Below are positions 1,397 through 61,558 of a stretch of DNA of 64,000 bases, piece by piece. The translations under genes and the position numbers were made by a program. The notes under the pieces were generated by a model. It did no database searches, was not told the origin of the DNA, and saw only the letters and a list, made by a program, of their open reading frames with translations. Location: positions 124,001 to 188,000 of the forward strand of contig JACRMS010000026.1 of NCBI GenBank assembly GCA_016214845.1. The letters are read 5' to 3'. The first letter of the stretch is position 1. Every line of letters starts with the position of its first letter. Origin of the DNA: Nitrospirota bacterium. GTDB taxonomy: Bacteria > Nitrospirota > Thermodesulfovibrionia > UBA6902.

Positions 1397-1490
1397 GGGC
1401 ATCCAGTCTTTTTAATAAGTCCTGGATGCCCGATTACTAACTTCGGGCATGACGAAAAGAAAAAAAGACAGACATTATTAAAGCAAAATT

Positions 1491-2600
1491 CTACGGCTTC
1501 CAGTGTTCTGTAAACTTACCGCCTTTTGTGATCCACACAACGTAAGGCGCAACCGTGACATCGCCTTTGGAATCAAACTTTATATTGCCAAGCGCGCCGT
1601 TAAATTCCATGGAATGGAGTATATCCATAATGGCTCTGCCCTCAGTTGTCTTAGCGGCGTCTATGGCCTTCAGCATAATGTTTCCTGCGTCATAAGCGTA
1701 GATCGAATAGGGCCCGATCTCACCGAATTTTTTATTGTACTGCTCAATGAATCCCTTTGCGCTTGGGATGTTGACGGGATCAGGGCTGAATGTTATATAA
1801 GTCCCTTCTGCGGACTCTGCTCCCGCGATCTCGATAAACTTGGGGTCAATGATGCCGTCGCCGCCCATAAAAGGGACTGTCATGCCGAGCTCGCGGGACT
1901 GCTTCACTAAAAGCCCACCCTCCGGATAAATTCCCCCGAAAAATATCAGCTCAGGTTTCTTCTCTTTGATGGAGATCAGAACGGTCTTGAAGTCCTTGTC
2001 TCCCTGGACAATGCCGCCGTAATAAACGACTTCCGCTTTATCGCCAAGGAACTTTTTGAATTCATCGGCAAGCCCCTGCCCATAGGTGGTCTTATCATGA
2101 ATGACGGCAACTTTTTTTACTTTAAGCTGGGAGACCGCAAAATCGGCAGCGACCTTTCCCTGCTGGTCGTCCCTGCCGCACACCCTGAATACACCGTGAT
2201 AGCCTTTTTCCGTAAGCTGGGGATTTGTAGAGCCCGGGGATATCATCGGGACGCCCGCGCGGTTGTATACATCAGAGGCGGGAATAGAGCAGCTTGAGTT
2301 GAAATGCCCGATCACTCCGGCCGCGCCTTGCGTTACAAGTTTATTGGCAACCGAAACCGCCTGCTTGGGGTCCCTCTGGTCATCCCCGATTATAAGCTCG
2401 ATCTTTTTGCCGAGGACACCGCCTTTGGCGTTCCACTCCTCCACTGCAAGGGTCACTCCGTTCTTGAAATCCATTCCCATCTTTGCCTGGTCGCCTGTCA
2501 TCGGACCGGCAATGCCTATCTTGATCACATCTTCACCTTTCTTGACACAACCAAGCATGACCAGGATTACAAGTGAAAGCAGTAATAATCTTCTTACCAT
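1491..2600 (-). CDS. livK: Branched-chain amino acid ABC transporter substrate-binding lipoprotein
   Basis: Periplasmic binding protein of the LivK/LIVBP type I family (369 residues, normal length). It begins with a lipoprotein signal peptide ending in VMLGC, so Cys18 would be lipidated and the protein tethered to a membrane. Family hallmarks follow: IKIGIAGPMTGDQAKMG, GVIGHFNSSCSIPASDVYN (ligand-binding serines), and MISPGSTNP. A GGAGGGAAAA ribosome site precedes ATG 2600. The matching ATPase LivF lies about 1.2 kb away on the same strand with AlkD between; LivH, LivM and LivG are absent from the window. Exact ligand is unknown. Confidence 0.85.
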   Translation of the reverse strand: MVRRLLLLSLVILVMLGCVKKGEDVIKIGIAGPMTGDQAKMGMDFKNGVTLAVEEWNAKGGVLGKKIELIIGDDQRDPKQAVSVANKLVTQGAAGVIGHFNSSCSIPASDVYNRAGVPMISPGSTNPQLTEKGYHGVFRVCGRDDQQGKVAADFAVSQLKVKKVAVIHDKTTYGQGLADEFKKFLGDKAEVVYYGGIVQGDKDFKTVLISIKEKKPELIFFGGIYPEGGLLVKQSRELGMTVPFMGGDGIIDPKFIEIAGAESAEGTYITFSPDPVNIPSAKGFIEQYNKKFGEIGPYSIYAYDAGNIMLKAIDAAKTTEGRAIMDILHSMEFNGALGNIKFDSKGDVTVAPYVVWITKGGKFTEHWKP

Positions 2601-53167: not shown

Positions 53168-54061
53168 TCACCCGTCACTTTTATTCTTTGCCCCCAGTAT
53201 CACCATTACAACCCCGGCAAGGATTATAAGCATTGCTGAAATACCGGTTGCCGTGATCTGCTCACCTGCAAGCCAAACTCCCAATATGACTGCGATAACG
53301 GGATTGACGTATGCATAGCTCGTTGCAAGCGAGGGACGCACTTTATCGAGCAGATACATGTATGCAATGAATCCCACCAGCGATCCGAAGACCGCAAGAT
53401 ATATAACTGCCGCTACCGAATGCCACGTTGGGACCCCGCTCACTCTCTCGCCTGCAAGCAGACTTACGGCAAGCACAAGCACCCCGCCGGTTATCATCTC
53501 AGCCGCGCTTGCCATCATCCCCGAAGGAAGGGATATGCGTCTGCTCCACACGGAACCGAATGACCAGGAGACGGCCGAGATCATCAATGCGATCGCCCCG
53601 ATCGGGTTGGCCTTAAGGTCAGCTTCAAAATTCAGGACCGCCACTCCGGCAAGTCCCAGGATAAGCCCGGCCCATTCAAGACGCGATGGTCTGTGCCCCC
53701 AGATCGCTGAAAATATAACTGTCCACAGAGGCACAGTCGCGATCAAAAGCGCCGCAAGTCCGGACCCAATCCATTGTTCGGCAAACGCAACTCCGCCGCC
53801 ACCGCCTAACAGTAAAAGTCCTCCGATCAATGTCGCATTTAACCACTGGGAACGGTCAGGCGTACAGACACCTTTCATCCTCAGGAATACATAAAGTCCT
53901 GCCCCCGCCGCAAGAAACCGCACCCCCATCATGAAAAAGGGAGGGAAGTCCTTCAGCGCCACCCGTATCGCCAGGTATGTCGAGCTCCAGAATATATAAA
54001 CCGCAAGCAGCGCAATTATTACCCTGGCCTTTACATCTCCTCTGATCGCTTTTAAAACCAT
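53168..54061 (-). CDS. EamA/DMT-family transporter
   Basis: 297 residues, about ten membrane helices in two EamA repeats (STYLAIRVALKDFPPFFMMG; WSFGSVWSRRISLPSGMMAS). The end AMLIILAGVVMVILG is typical of YedA-like metabolite exporters. Substrate unknown. Confidence 0.88.
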   Translation of the reverse strand: MVLKAIRGDVKARVIIALLAVYIFWSSTYLAIRVALKDFPPFFMMGVRFLAAGAGLYVFLRMKGVCTPDRSQWLNATLIGGLLLLGGGGGVAFAEQWIGSGLAALLIATVPLWTVIFSAIWGHRPSRLEWAGLILGLAGVAVLNFEADLKANPIGAIALMISAVSWSFGSVWSRRISLPSGMMASAAEMITGGVLVLAVSLLAGERVSGVPTWHSVAAVIYLAVFGSLVGFIAYMYLLDKVRPSLATSYAYVNPVIAVILGVWLAGEQITATGISAMLIILAGVVMVILGAKNKSDG

Positions 54062-54085: not shown

Positions 54086-54114
54086 GTAGGGGCGGGTTTG
54101 AAACCCGCCCCTAC
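54086..54114. repeat. 29-bp palindrome GTAGGGGCGGGTTT with one-base loop
   Basis: Perfect inverted repeat with arm GTAGGGGCGGGTTT and single G centre, sister of the palindrome inside livF. It contains the stop codon of the adjacent methyltransferase gene. Confidence 0.9.
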
Positions 54115-54881
54115 TTATCCGCAAAGGCAAAGAGCCTTCTGAAATTAAACTCTATCCCGCGTTTCGTTCTATAGTTCTCAAATCCCATCGCGAATGCATA
54201 TTTAAAACGCTCCTGCTTCTTCTCCGACAAAGGGGCAAGATACGGTCTCAGCGCTGCTGAAACTCCCCATTTAAGCACATCATTGATGCTGTCAAACAGG
54301 AGAACATAATCTTTGTAAGAGACATTGATATTACCAAAGCCCGCGTCTTTGAGAAAACCATACAGCTCTTCCTTCAACGGAAAACGCCACGGCGATTCCA
54401 TCCTGTTGAATTTCTCATCAAGACCGAGAGCTGCGATAGCGCTTTGTATATTTTCCGACAACGTCCAGCAAAAGTCCTTTGCGGGCATTTGGACCGCAAG
54501 CCTACCGTAAGGTTTTAACGCCCTGTGTGCGCGGGCAACCACATCCTCCTGCTCTTTTATCCACTGCAGCGCGGAATTGGAAAATACAAGATCAAACTCT
54601 TTTTCGAAATCCATGGACTGTGCCGGAATTTTCAGCAGATGCATATTGCCGAGATCAGCAGACACTTCCCTCGCTTTTGAAAGCATCTCATCCGACGGGT
54701 CAATGCCGATGACATTTCCCCTTGCGGCAAGACGCGCAAGTTCAACCGTAAGCTTTCCGGTGCCGCAGCCGAGGTCGAGTACGCAATCATCTTCTCTCAC
54801 CTTTGCCCTATCAATCAGTTCCATGCCTGCGTCGATCTGCGGGGCATGTGTCAGGTCATACTGCTCTGCGTCCCATTTCAT
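54111..54881 (-). CDS. SAM-dependent methyltransferase (Tam-like)
   Basis: About 256 residues: MKWDAEQYDLTHAPQIDAGM, SAM loop CVLDLGCGTGKLTVELA, GIDPSDEMLSKAREV, FDLVFSNSALQWIKEQ, and GRLAVQMPAKDF. This resembles trans-aconitate 2-methyltransferase. GGAGGTG six bases before ATG 54881 decides the start over 54908. A promoter, a small ORF and a terminator hairpin precede the gene (54901-55084), indicating attenuation. The stop codon lies within the 54086-54114 palindrome. Confidence 0.83.
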   Translation of the reverse strand: MKWDAEQYDLTHAPQIDAGMELIDRAKVREDDCVLDLGCGTGKLTVELARLAARGNVIGIDPSDEMLSKAREVSADLGNMHLLKIPAQSMDFEKEFDLVFSNSALQWIKEQEDVVARAHRALKPYGRLAVQMPAKDFCWTLSENIQSAIAALGLDEKFNRMESPWRFPLKEELYGFLKDAGFGNINVSYKDYVLLFDSINDVLKWGVSAALRPYLAPLSEKKQERFKYAFAMGFENYRTKRGIEFNFRRLFAFADK

Positions 54882-54897
54882 GGCACACCTCCAAAAT

Positions 54898-54930
54898 AAA
54901 AAAGCCACGGAAATTGTTCCGTGGCTTTTG
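54898..54930 (-). terminator. Terminator/attenuator in the methyltransferase leader
   Basis: Perfect 12-bp stem AAAGCCACGGAA / TTCCGTGGCTTT with 4-base loop, followed on the minus strand by a T-run (TTTTTTATTTT) and then directly by the GGAGG of the methyltransferase gene. The sequence CCGTGGCT of its 3' arm is repeated upstream at 54982-54975, where it can pair instead with the 5' arm. Confidence 0.8.
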
Positions 54931-54956
54931 AAGTTTTCTTATTATCCGGCTAACAG

Positions 54957-55049
54957 TTAATAGAACTCCTCCTCAGCCACGGCATTAATATGCCATGCGG
55001 CTTTAAGATTAAGGACTATCCTGACTGTCATCGGATTAGTGAAAAACAT
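54957..55049 (-). CDS. Leaderless 30-residue ORF in the attenuator region
   Basis: Thirty codons (begins MFFTNPMTVRIVLNLKAA, ends AVAEEEFY). The ATG coincides with the transcription start expected from the promoter at 55056-55084, so it would be leaderless. The stretch LNLKAAWHINA faintly recalls DsbD N-domain-like sequences, so a gene remnant is an alternative. It could be a leader peptide whose translation controls the downstream hairpin. Confidence 0.35.
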   Translation of the reverse strand: MFFTNPMTVRIVLNLKAAWHINAVAEEEFY

Positions 55050-55055
55050 GTTTTA

Positions 55056-55084
55056 AGTATAGGCCAACTTATTTCCCATGTCAA
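55056..55084 (-). promoter_or_regulatory. Near-consensus sigma70 promoter
   Basis: TTGACA (55084-55079), 17-bp spacer, TATACT (55061-55056) on the minus strand. It lies between the protoporphyrinogen-oxidase-like gene and the small ORF/attenuator. Confidence 0.75.
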
Positions 55085-56540: not shown

Positions 56541-57341
56541 TCATTTGCGTGCTTCAACATAGACGCTGACCACATAATCATCGAGGGATTCACCTTTACC
56601 CAAGCTGTTTAAGATCGCCCTGCCGATGGGGTCTTTTGTGTCCGGGTCGATGCAGGCCGAAGAACCTTTGACGGTCACTTTAACATTTTTAAATCCAGCG
56701 TCCTTAACTAATTTTTTATAGTCTTCGACAAGTATTGCTCCGCCTACACAGCCGACATATGCCCCCATGCTTTTTTTGATCTTCGATGAGAGACTTTTCT
56801 TCAGGGCGATATCCGAAATTGCAATTCTGCCGCCGCGCCTTAAGACCCTCTTCACCTCATGGAGGACCTTTTCTTTATCAGAAGAGAGATTGATGACGCA
56901 ATTGGAAATAACAACGTCCACGGTATTATCTCCGGCAGGAAGGTTCTCAATCTCCCCAAGCCTGAATTCCACATTTTTGAATTTATTTTTCCGGGCATTC
57001 TCCCTTGCCTTCTCGATCATCTCAGGCGTCATGTCCACGCCAATGACCTTTCCGCTCCGGCCCGCATTCTTTGCCGCGAGGAAACAGTCAAATCCCGCGC
57101 CTGCCCCGAGATCAAGGACTGTTTCGCCTTTTTTGATACTTGCGAGCGCCGTCGGGTTCCCGCAGCTAAGCCCCAGGTTGGCATCTTCCGGAATAACGTT
57201 CAATTCCTTTTCCGAATAGCCGATGCCTTTGGCAAATTCCCTTGCGTCCGGCCCGCAGGCGCCGCAGCCGCAGCCCTTTTGCTCCTTGGCGATCCTGCCA
57301 TAGGATTCTCTAACGACTTTCTTGATTTCAATTGATTTCAT
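56541..57341 (-). CDS. arsM: Arsenite methyltransferase ArsM
   Basis: About 266 residues. VRESYGRIAKEQKGCGCGACG opens with C24, C26 and C29; GLSCGNPTALASIKKGETVL and the SAM loop LDLGAGAGFDCFLA follow; then VISNCVINLSSDKEKVLHEV and MGAYVGCVGGAI. The three As-binding cysteines typical of ArsM are in C60, NCVINL and VGCVGG. Methylates As(III) to volatile or less toxic forms. AGGAGG lies upstream of ATG 57341. No arsR or other ars gene is adjacent. Confidence 0.88.
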   Translation of the reverse strand: MKSIEIKKVVRESYGRIAKEQKGCGCGACGPDAREFAKGIGYSEKELNVIPEDANLGLSCGNPTALASIKKGETVLDLGAGAGFDCFLAAKNAGRSGKVIGVDMTPEMIEKARENARKNKFKNVEFRLGEIENLPAGDNTVDVVISNCVINLSSDKEKVLHEVKRVLRRGGRIAISDIALKKSLSSKIKKSMGAYVGCVGGAILVEDYKKLVKDAGFKNVKVTVKGSSACIDPDTKDPIGRAILNSLGKGESLDDYVVSVYVEARK

Positions 57342-57448
57342 TTCGTAGCTTCCTCCTCGCTTGTTCCTGCACCTCGCCGTCTTCACTTTTGTAAAGCGGA
57401 AAGGTTAATATAAACTCTATTTTACAGGGGAGTTTAAAAAAAACAACT

Positions 57449-58660
57449 ATGAAATACATCGTACTAATCGGCGATGGAATGACCGGCAGGCCGCTGAAGG
57501 AGCTCGGCGACAAGACCTGCCTTCAAAAAGCACGCACTCCTAATATGGACAGGCTTGCCGCGGAAGGCGTTATCGGCACGGCCCGCACCATTCCGCACGG
57601 ATTTCATCCCGGCTCTGATGTTGCCAACCTCAGCATACTTGGTTACAACCCTGCTCAGTACTATACAGGCAGGGCCCCGCTTGAGGCCGCAAGCATCGGC
57701 ATAAAACTCGACAGGGACGATGTCGCCTACAGGTGCAATCTCGTTACATTGAAGGCCGATGGTGATAAAACATTTATGGATGACTACAGCAGCGGTCATA
57801 TAACCACTGAAGAAGCAAGCGAGATTATTAAATCTATTGGTAACGAACTCGGCAATGAGGAAATAAAATTCTATCCCGGAGTGAGCTACCGTCATCTGAT
57901 GGTCTGGAAGAACGGACATGCTGATATTCAGTGTACGCCGCCTCACGACATACTCGGAAAAGAGATCAGCGGGTATATGCCGTCTGGTGAAGGTGAAAAG
58001 ATTTTAAGGGATTTAATGAAGCGTTCCGTGAAAGTCCTTGAGACTCATCCCGTAAATCAGAAGAGATTGCGAGACGGAAAGAAACCCGCCAGCAGTATCT
58101 GGCTGTGGGGACAAGGCAGGAAACCGCAGTTGCCAACGTACCATGAAAAGTACGGATTGAAGGGCGCGCTCATCTCGGCAGTTGACCTGACAAAAGGGCT
58201 TGGCATATACGCGGGATTTGAGATTCTTAAAGTGCCGGGTGTGACGGGCTGGCTTGATACGAATTATAAAGGCAAGGCTGATTACGCCTTGAATGCGCTG
58301 AATGACGCGGACTTTGTTTATATACATGTCGAGTCTCCTGATGAGGCGGGACATTCGGGAAGTTATGAAGATAAGCTGAAGGCCATAGAGGATTTTGATG
58401 CGCTGGTTGTCGGGCCCGTGATGAAAGGATTGGCGGAAAGGTTTGACAATTACCGCGTCCTGCTGATGCCTGACCATGCGACCCCGGTTGCAGCAAGGAC
58501 CCACACGCCCGATCCTGTGCCGTTCGTGGTATTTGACAGCCGTCACAAAATGAAAAACGAGGGCGCGGCATTTGACGAATCCATTGCTGAGAGGAAGAAC
58601 ATTATGGTCTTTGAAGAGGGATACAGGTTGATGGATTATTTTATCAAGGAGGTTTTTTAA
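57449..58660 (+). CDS. apgM: Cofactor-independent phosphoglycerate mutase, archaeal type
   Basis: 403 residues of the ApgM/aPGAM family: [35 protein letters not shown] (catalytic serine), [43 protein letters not shown]. Interconverts 3- and 2-phosphoglycerate. Also used as phosphonopyruvate-decarboxylase-related, but the glycolytic role is most likely. Two bases before lysC. Confidence 0.92.
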
Positions 58661-58662
58661 TA

Positions 58663-59877
58663 ATGTTAATCGTTCAGAAATACGGAGGCACCTCTGTAGC
58701 GAACGTCGCGAGGATAAAAGCAGTCGCGGAGCGTGTTTCAAAAGCGGCGAAAGAGGGGCACAAAGTTGTTGTAGTCGTGTCAGCCATGTCGGGCGAGACC
58801 GACAAACTGATAGGGCTTGCCAACCAGATATCACAAAATCCCGGGGAGAGGGAAATGGACCTGCTGCTTTCATCCGGTGAACGCGTGACCAGCGCTCTTA
58901 CCGCAATGGCTGTTGAAGCGCTGGGGCATAAGGCAATGGCGTTTACAGGAAGGCAGATGGGCATTATTACAGACGCGGTCCACACTAAGGCAAGGATAGA
59001 GAAGATCACTGGCGAAAGGGCCCAAAAGGCATTGAGTGAAAACTACGTCATCGTGGTCGCGGGATTTCAGGGTGTAACCGAGACAGATGATGTAACGACC
59101 CTCGGCAGGGGCGGCTCCGACCTTTCCGCGGTTGCGATAGCCTCTGCCCTGAATGCCGACCTGTGCGAGATTTACACTGACGTTGACGGGGTCTACACCA
59201 CAGACCCCAATATCGTGCCGGAGGCGAAGAAGCTTGAAAAAATATCCTATGAAGAAATGCTTGAGCTTGCAAGCCTCGGGGCAAAGGTGCTTCAGACACG
59301 TTCTGTAGAATTTGCAATGAAATACGGAGTGCCTGTGGTGGTGAGATCGAGTTTCAATGATAACCCGGGAACGCTTGTTACCAAGGAGGACAAAGATATG
59401 GAGAAGGTTGTAGTATCCGGCGTCGCTTATGATAAAAACCAGGCCAAGATAACTGTGATGGCAGTGCCCGACACACCCGGAATAGCGGCAAGGCTTTTTA
59501 GAGGAATTGCGGATGCAAACATTGTCGTCGACATGATCGTCCAGAATATCAGCAGTGACGGAAACGCGGCTGATATTTCATTCACCGTTCCCAAGACTGA
59601 CAGCAAAAAAACGCTGAAGCTGGCTGAAGAAATTGCAAAGGCGCTCAATGCAAAAAGCGTTAACCTCAGGGAGGACATTGCCAAGATATCCGTTGTGGGC
59701 GTCGGCATGAGGACGCATTCCGGGGTCGCCTCGCAGATGTTCGACACCCTCGCGAAACACGGAATAAATATCATGATGATCGGCACATCGGAAATAAAGG
59801 TGTCCTGCGTCATAGAGCTGAAATATACCGAGCTTGCAGTGAGGGTGCTGCATGAGGCATTCGGTCTGGCGCAATAG
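58663..59877 (+). CDS. lysC: Aspartate kinase
   Basis: 404 residues. [57 protein letters not shown], then two ACT domains ([40 protein letters not shown]) for lysine/threonine control. First step of the aspartate family used by hom and thrC. Confidence 0.95.
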
Positions 59878-59896
59878 GAGTTGTATGAAAATAAAT

Positions 59897-59972
59897 AAAC
59901 ACAGAGACACGGAGGCACTGAGAAACTTCTTATCTTCAAGTTATTCTCTGTGTCTCAGTGACTCAGTGGTTT
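59897..59972. repeat. Inverted pair of CACRGAG octamer arrays
   Basis: CACAGAGA, CACGGAGG, CACTGAGA facing CTCTGTGTCTCAGTGACTC across about 20 bp, between lysC and cimA. Confidence 0.88.
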
Positions 59973-59995
59973 CAGAGATATGGTAAAATAACGCC

Positions 59996-61558
59996 ATGCG
60001 CAAAATTGAACTGTACGACACGACATTAAGAGACGGCGCCCAGTCAGAGGACGTCTCCTTCTCTGTAGAAGACAAGTTAAGGATAATGTGGAAGCTCGAT
60101 GATCTGGGCATCCATTATATCGAAGGCGGATGGCCCGGATCAAATCCGCGGGACGCCGAGTTTTTTAACAAGGCAAAAAAGTTTAAATTTAAAAACGCGC
60201 AGCTCGCGGCCTTCGGTTCCACGTACCACGCATCCAACAAAGTAAACGACGACCCCAATATCAAGGCGCTCCTTGCGGCCAAAACCCCTGTAATAACCAT
60301 TGTGGGAAAGACGTGGGACTTTCACGTGAAAGAAGCTTTGAGGGTTTCACAACAGACAAATCTTGAACTGATCTTCAACTCGATAGAGTATCTCAAAAAG
60401 AGGGTATCAAAAGTATTCTTTGATGCCGAGCATTTCTTTGACGGTTATAAGGCAAACCCGGAATATGCGCTGAAAGCCCTGGAGGCCGCTGTCACAGGCG
60501 GCGCTGACTGTCTCGTGCTCTGTGATTCAAACGGAGGGACTTTGCCTCCCGATATAGCGAAGATCGTGAAAATCGTATCGGAGAAATTTAAGTTTCCACT
60601 CGGCATACATGCTCACAACGATTCCGAATGCGCGGTGGCAAACTCTATTGTTGCCATTGAAAACGGCGTGATGCAGGTGCAGGGAACGATAAACGGCTTG
60701 GGTGAAAGATGCGGCAACGCCAACCTGATCTCCGTCATTCCTAATTTGAAATTAAAGTTGAAGTTTGACTGCATAAGCGACACTGACTTAAAGAAATTAA
60801 AGGGTGTCTCCAGGTTCGTGACCGAGATCTCGAACATGAGGCATTTCAAAAGACAGCCTTATGTCGGAGACAGCGCCTTTGCGCATAAAGGCGGCATCCA
60901 TGTCAGCGCAATTCAAAGGCATCCCCAGACATATGAACATATCCGCCCTGACACAGTAGGAAATTATCAGAGAGTACTGGTGTCCGACCTCGGCGGCAGG
61001 AGCAATATCATCAGGAAGATAAAAGATTTTAAATTGAAGGTCGACCCTGATTCACCGAAGGTCACGCAGATTGTAAAGGAACTGAAAGAGCTTGAGAACC
61101 AGGGGTTCCAGTTTGAAGGTGCTGAGGCGTCGTTTGAACTTTTGATAAAGAAGACCTTCGGGCTTCACAGGAAATTTTTCGACCTTATGGGTTTCAGGCT
61201 GATCGTTGAAAAAAGAGAAGAAGGCGGCGCCCCTCTCAGCGAGGCGACTATTATGGTCAAAGTTGGAAAAACACTGGAGCACACAGCAGCGACAGGCCAC
61301 GGCCCCGTTAACGCGCTCGATAACGCTCTCAGAAAAGCGCTTGAGAAATTCTATCCGCAGCTTAAGCATGTGAAGCTTCTGGATTATAAAGTTCGGGTGT
61401 TGACCGCAGGCGTCGGCACCTCAGCAAAGGTCAGGGTCCTGATCGAATCAGGAGATGAAACTCACAAATGGGGGACCGTTGGCGTATCGGAAAATATAAT
61501 TGAAGCGTCATACCAGGCGCTGGTGGATAGTATCGAGTATAAATTATTGAGAGGGTAA
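59996..61558 (+). CDS. cimA: (R)-citramalate synthase
   Basis: 520 residues. [74 protein letters not shown] and a C-terminal LeuA dimer domain (TTILV-type, [20 protein letters not shown]). Joins pyruvate and acetyl-CoA for threonine-independent isoleucine synthesis. Confidence 0.93.

Follow-up and report, generated by a model that had tools for sequence, protein, structure and literature searches.

A putative leaderless, tryptophan-keyed transcription attenuator family in Nitrospirota, found mostly before methyltransferase genes

The question raised by this locus is what a compact arrangement of promoter, small open reading frame (ORF) and terminator does for the methyltransferase gene that directly follows it. 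The locus lies on the minus strand of the window, a stretch of 64,000 nucleotides from a Nitrospirota bacterium (assembly GCA_016214845.1, contig JACRMS010000026.1, positions 124,001 to 188,000), and window coordinates are used below. A preliminary description made from the letters alone had proposed transcription attenuation, perhaps controlled by translation of the small ORF or by a ligand. On comparative analysis and computational folding, the element is best explained, with a probability that we put at about 0.8, as a transcription attenuator that is operated by ribosomes on a leaderless leader ORF and responds to Trp-tRNA.

It can be seen from Table 1 that the parts are closely packed. 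The promoter agrees with the consensus at 11 of 12 hexamer positions, and the ATG of the leader ORF (55049) lies 6 bases 3' of the -10 hexamer, hence at or adjacent to the expected start of transcription. The terminator 3' arm is identical to the CCGTGGCT core inside the ORF, and AGCCACGG is able to pair with either CCGTGGCT copy. The hairpin GGCAT-ATTA-ATGCC is also present within the ORF, and one long rod can form from codon 4 to the region past the stop. In most respects the preliminary description had therefore read the locus correctly, including the near-consensus promoter, the 30-codon frame, the small hairpin, the double complementarity of the terminator arm and the GGAGG ahead of the methyltransferase. 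The terminator that it placed directly before this gene is present with a stem of 13 bp, not 12, and the long rod and the key feature, an in-frame Trp codon, had been overlooked.

Table 1 Features of the putative attenuator and the operon behind it, in window coordinates
Feature	Position	Strand	Basis or remark
-35 hexamer TTGACA	55079..55084	-	TTGACA also in 80/84 family members
-10 hexamer TATACT	55056..55061	-	17-nt spacer after -35 here
Putatively leaderless 30-codon leader ORF, MFFTNPMTVRIVLNLKAAWHINAVAEEEFY*	54957..55049	-	Sequence; stop-free frame in 84/84 copies
Lower rod stem, 5' strand, within ORF	55024..55036	-	MFE folds; swap test 0/2000
Candidate control Trp codon TGG, codon 19, 13 nt 5' of region 2	54993..54995	-	Comparison and mask folding
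Region 1, GGCAT, partner of region 2 start	54990..54994	-	Folding, swap test
Region 2, ATGCCGTGGCT; core CCGTGGCT at 54982-54975	54975..54985	-	98.1% of cells pair with region 3, 84 sequences
Lower rod stem, 3' strand, at and past the stop codon	54944..54957	-	MFE folds; swap test
Region 3, AGCCACGG, terminator 5' arm and antiterminator partner	54919..54926	-	Pairing and covariation
Region 4, CCGTGGCT, terminator 3' arm	54903..54910	-	Pairing and covariation
Intrinsic terminator: 13-bp stem (54929-54900), 4-nt loop, T tract	54895..54929	-	Sequence
GGAGG ribosome-binding site of methyltransferase	54888..54892	-	Sequence
Class I SAM methyltransferase, ATG 54881	54111..54881	-	Nearest trans-aconitate 2-methyltransferase (Tam)
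EamA-family exporter (predicted)	53168..54061	-	NCBIfam YedA equivalog 366 bits, cut-off 270

The element is a member of a family. By DNA similarity a 226-nt stretch was recognisable in 44 of 200 relatives; a covariance model built from 33 copies found matches in 80 of 230 genomes of the class, and a second model, built from 84 copies, in 87 of 229 together with 9 of 14 genomes of another Nitrospirota class. In its own genome the search gave only this one element, the weak matches being terminator-like at best. A search that did not depend on the element was made with the methyltransferase, of which 46 orthologues were found in the class, two of them at contig starts, leaving 44 that could be tested. 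The element lies upstream of 42, once with a CBS-domain-like gene between, and two orthologues (in G167 and G207) are without it. Given this recurrence, in class genomes and before testable orthologues, the observed module is far above chance. For the statistics, 92 matches were examined and eight left out, giving 84 curated copies: L002 has lost its terminator, and in L114, L116, L122, L123, L127, L129 and L141 the ORF was shifted, missing or short at the model start, or the sequence was truncated. In L127 a 28-codon ORF from a nearby ATG was found after its exclusion.

Promoter and reading frame are conserved together. The spacer between the promoter hexamers is 17 or 18 nt in 82 of the 84 copies, and the gap from -10 to ATG is 5-7 nt, usually 6, in 79, which puts the ATG at the +1 predicted from sequence. 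The model start is ATG, and the first 78 nt are without an in-frame stop, in all 84 copies, an upper figure given that eight copies were excluded and the model was built on ATG-starting sequences; the two other frames contain stops in 74 and 73 copies (about 88% each). ORF length is 26-30 codons in 83/84 copies, with about 28 typical of the family. Gaps inside the ORF are all multiples of three in the alignment of close relatives, and those 3' of it are not. When indel lengths were counted for every pair of copies, no clear periodicity of three emerged, since the frame is not the same in distant members; the pattern is visible solely in the close-relative alignment. These observations are indicative of a leader translated as a short ORF at the transcript start, with transcription probably beginning on or next to the AUG.

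The alternative helices are conserved as well. Across the 84 sequences, region 3:4 is paired in 98.8% of cells, close to the value for region 2:3 given in Table 1, and pairing drops to 21-50% when the columns are slid by one to three; covariation scores of both helices beat all 500 shuffles, with few columns varying. The family form of region 2 is a CCGUGGCY segment in the ORF, and in seven copies that carry an A.C mismatch in the terminator, region 2 nevertheless fully matches region 3. The lower rod was missed by RNAalifold on the plain alignment because of misalignment, and swap tests were therefore used, in which the duplex energy of native partners is set against that of swapped partners. 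Native pairs were better for the lower rod (-12.2 vs -9.2), region 1:2 (-14.4 vs -12.7) and the antiterminator extension (-5.3 vs -4.8), with 0-1 of 2000 swaps as good, and two control pairings had no native advantage. The results persist in a less redundant set of 37 members; because the species share ancestry, neither the Fisher nor the swap tests rest on independent samples. Regions 1:2, 2:3 and 3:4 are thus predicted to form mutually exclusive helices with an intrinsic terminator. The covariation check proposed in the preliminary description corroborates its suggestion of attenuation controlled by small-ORF translation, since the promoter, the ATG position and both pairings are conserved and the helices coevolve. 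Sequence and comparison establish the parts and their reading frame, the alternative helices, where the Trp codon lies and how the family is distributed.

The position of the Trp codon was interrogated by mask folding, in which each leader was cut before the terminator 3' arm and ribosome-sized stretches were masked. The antiterminator had a mean probability of 0.96-0.98 when the Trp codon occupied the A site, of 0.15 when the ribosome stood at the stop codon and of 0.39 without a ribosome, the last value implying that termination is not invariably the default state in silico. When the ribosome was moved codon by codon, release of the antiterminator stayed high as far as 13 nt from region 2 (0.96), fell to 0.43 at 10 nt and was 0.01 at 7 nt. 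In 53 copies the Trp codon is exactly 13 nt from region 2, the shortest distance at which the model still gives full release. Over the family the distance from TGG to region 2 varies (13, 15, 11 and others) with the phase of region 2 while TGG stays in frame with the ATG; TGG is therefore not kept merely for pairing, which would predict a fixed distance and a free frame. Nearly every TGG in the control zone is in frame. The only out-of-frame TGG at 13 nt belongs to L093, a leuA leader in which the hairpin is retained and read as Met-Ala, and one more occurs 9 nt from region 2 in another copy. Most copies have a single Trp as control codon, which is weaker than the classic tandem codons. In the folding model this codon is placed where a stalled ribosome would mask region 1 and free region 2.

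From these features we infer the start site, stalling, antitermination and physiological signal as follows. RNA polymerase would start on or beside the AUG, and a ribosome would initiate at the RNA 5' end. With no translation, or with the ribosome at the stop codon, region 2 would be either sequestered by region 1 and the rod or covered, and its unavailability would let region 3:4 pair and terminate transcription. A ribosome that stalls while the conserved Trp codon occupies the A site would cover region 1, its front edge just before region 2; the free region 2 would then pair with region 3, block the terminator and allow transcription of the methyltransferase-exporter operon. The signal is likely to be scarce Trp-tRNA. 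It counts against this explanation that it offers no reason for placing a methyltransferase and an exporter under Trp control.

The genes behind the element differ between copies, and the codons of the leader differ with them. In most copies the first gene is a Tam-like methyltransferase; at this locus the Tam identity is below the NCBIfam equivalog cut-off (103.8 bits vs 297). The EamA/YedA exporter is the first gene in some other genomes, and further first genes are two other methyltransferase types, a flavin protein near NimABCDEF, an MBL-fold protein and the biosynthetic ilvE, leuA and trpE, the module being on the same strand and directly 5' of members of this recurring set. Trp occurs in the control window of 71 of 78 non-leuA copies (missing from about 9%) vs 2 of the 10 leuA leaders that were scored (p=3.8e-6, with no correction for phylogeny), or 2 of 11 if L127, a leuA leader also without Trp, is added. 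In leuA leaders Leu codons are concentrated inside the effective window (17 of 70) relative to the stretches outside it (4 of 88). All five trpE leaders come from one family; they hold 4, 2, 3, 2 and 1 Trp, in accord with the pathway behind them. A regular expression for promoter and ATG before 30 trpE genes had detected only two leaders, and three more came through the second model. The trpE genes of family f15 (G093, G139, G160, G183, G193) have divergent members of the leader family, and the leader family may therefore have arisen as a trp attenuator or have been co-opted for that role.

Shared operons are found for methyltransferase and leuA (L130, L132) and for leuA and EamA (L105, L106), and such company of leuA and exporters only suggests a link to branched-chain intermediates. 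A speculative extension, which we regard as unlikely and which is drawn by analogy with the Tmt1 response of yeast, is that a shortage of amino acids, registered by the Trp or Leu codons of a single attenuator family, would switch on a Tam-like methyltransferase and an EamA exporter, which would methylate and export a biosynthetic intermediate; 2-isopropylmalate synthase joins in some operons. Yeast Tmt1 methylates 3-isopropylmalate, and the ester is reported to be a secreted starvation signal (PMC3197675 and its reference 21).

The main rival retains the same ribosome switch and alters the signal to translation stress or a ribosome-targeting drug, the downstream genes then serving detoxification or resistance. 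The gene set does resemble one for detoxification (YedA-type exporter, several SAM methyltransferases, MBL-fold hydrolase, Nim-like flavin protein), and in the folding model stalls at many upstream codons would also free the antiterminator. Antibiotic-induced leaders are on record for Escherichia coli toiL and Bacillus subtilis yxjB, where the stalling of a ribosome in the leader governs genes that include an rRNA methyltransferase. They differ from the element here: toiL acts by translation repression and Rho; yxjB responds to tylosin, whereas the codon evidence here points to Trp; and the methyltransferase here is, by family match, of small-molecule type. Against a drug or stress signal, an in-frame Trp codon is retained at a fixed ribosome distance across frame changes, and drug sensing predicts neither the tendency to more Trp in trpE leaders nor its absence from most leuA leaders. 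A drug or stress signal is accordingly considered unlikely.

A more distant possibility is that the ORF and the terminated RNA are themselves the product, a small protein or a trans-acting sRNA whose gene has a separate terminator and came to lie beside the methyltransferase through chance or co-transfer. Such a product would suit the peptide C-terminus AWHxxAVAxxxFY conserved among close relatives, the retention of the ORF in L002 with a decayed terminator and without an orthologous gene 3', and the action in trans of Sinorhizobium meliloti rnTrpL and peTrpL. Yet in distant copies the C-terminal stretch lies in other frames with the RNA motif retained, the region 2:3 pairing survives terminator mismatch, and the module keeps its place before the recurring genes, which makes this account very improbable. 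A function at the level of the peptide was rejected, as the RNA motif outlives the reading frame. Least probable is a ligand riboswitch (SAM or SAH, for example) controlling the methyltransferase with an incidental ORF, the ligand alternative of the preliminary description: the downstream enzyme uses SAM and the RNA is bistable with a terminator, but no Rfam family reached its gathering threshold and a permissive threshold gave nothing of use, in line with the earlier remark that no known riboswitch was recognised, its best sub-threshold matches being non-riboswitch; the conserved frame, ATG at +1, in-frame Trp codon and ribosome geometry would be unexpected, and some copies precede leuA, trpE and ilvE.

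The mechanism of the preferred reading, a leaderless attenuator keyed to Trp-tRNA, is itself already known, with leaderless amino-acid attenuators and single-Trp leaders described elsewhere. One close likeness is S. meliloti trpL (rnTrpL/peTrpL, PMC7298713), which has a leaderless ORF at the RNA 5' end, Trp codons and an exclusive antiterminator and terminator; it belongs to another phylum and has a 14-codon ORF before trpE(G), whereas the present element has no Rfam match, usually one Trp and mostly non-biosynthetic targets (methyltransferase, exporter). The leaderless trpL1, trpL2, ilvL and leuL of Streptomyces lividans (PMC8079986) encode peptides in which the controlled amino acid is abundant, upstream of trpE, trpS, ilv and leuA, and trpL2 has a single Trp like most copies here. 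For S. lividans a separate leader is reported for each gene, in contrast to the present module, which can be aligned across trpE, leuA, ilvE and methyltransferase operons and whose codon content changes with the gene class. Campylobacter jejuni TrpL, with one Trp codon, and LeuL, of 28 aa, are proposed attenuators before biosynthetic operons (PMC3847290), but they were found via ORFs with a ribosome-binding site and are hence not leaderless. A literature search for Nitrospirae leader peptides found none, and no leader-peptide attenuator described for the phylum; as far as Rfam and this literature were searched, the family is new, and so are its use before several gene classes and the target that it mostly serves. 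A leaderless attenuator family would thus apparently be widespread in the phylum. One alignable module before several gene classes, with matching codon changes, offers a natural experiment on attenuator re-targeting, and a link of the methyltransferase-exporter operon to amino-acid supply makes the role of the operon testable.

Some observations stand beside the main argument. A second class I methyltransferase (Methyltransf_31), arsenite methyltransferase-like by eye, is encoded at 56541-57386 on the minus strand, and CMD-family, CGGC-domain and sigma-70-like genes lie 3' of the operon. On the plus strand, genes that by eye resemble phosphoglycerate mutase, aspartokinase and citramalate synthase (57449-61558) adjoin it, a branched-chain and aspartate-family setting. 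In L002 (G006, element 1475-1619, minus strand), from the same genus, promoter and ORF are kept (92% identity), the terminator is decayed and no methyltransferase gene lies behind it, which looks like a recent loss. The contig of L037 (SCSY01000049.1) opens with an Illumina adapter-like GCTCTTCCGATCT just 5' of a methyltransferase orthologue, a probable assembly artefact. L148 (G107:C78) has tandem elements on one contig, at 294-438 and 1156-1301; the second lies directly before an MBL-fold gene and is the only one of the two with Trp at the control position.
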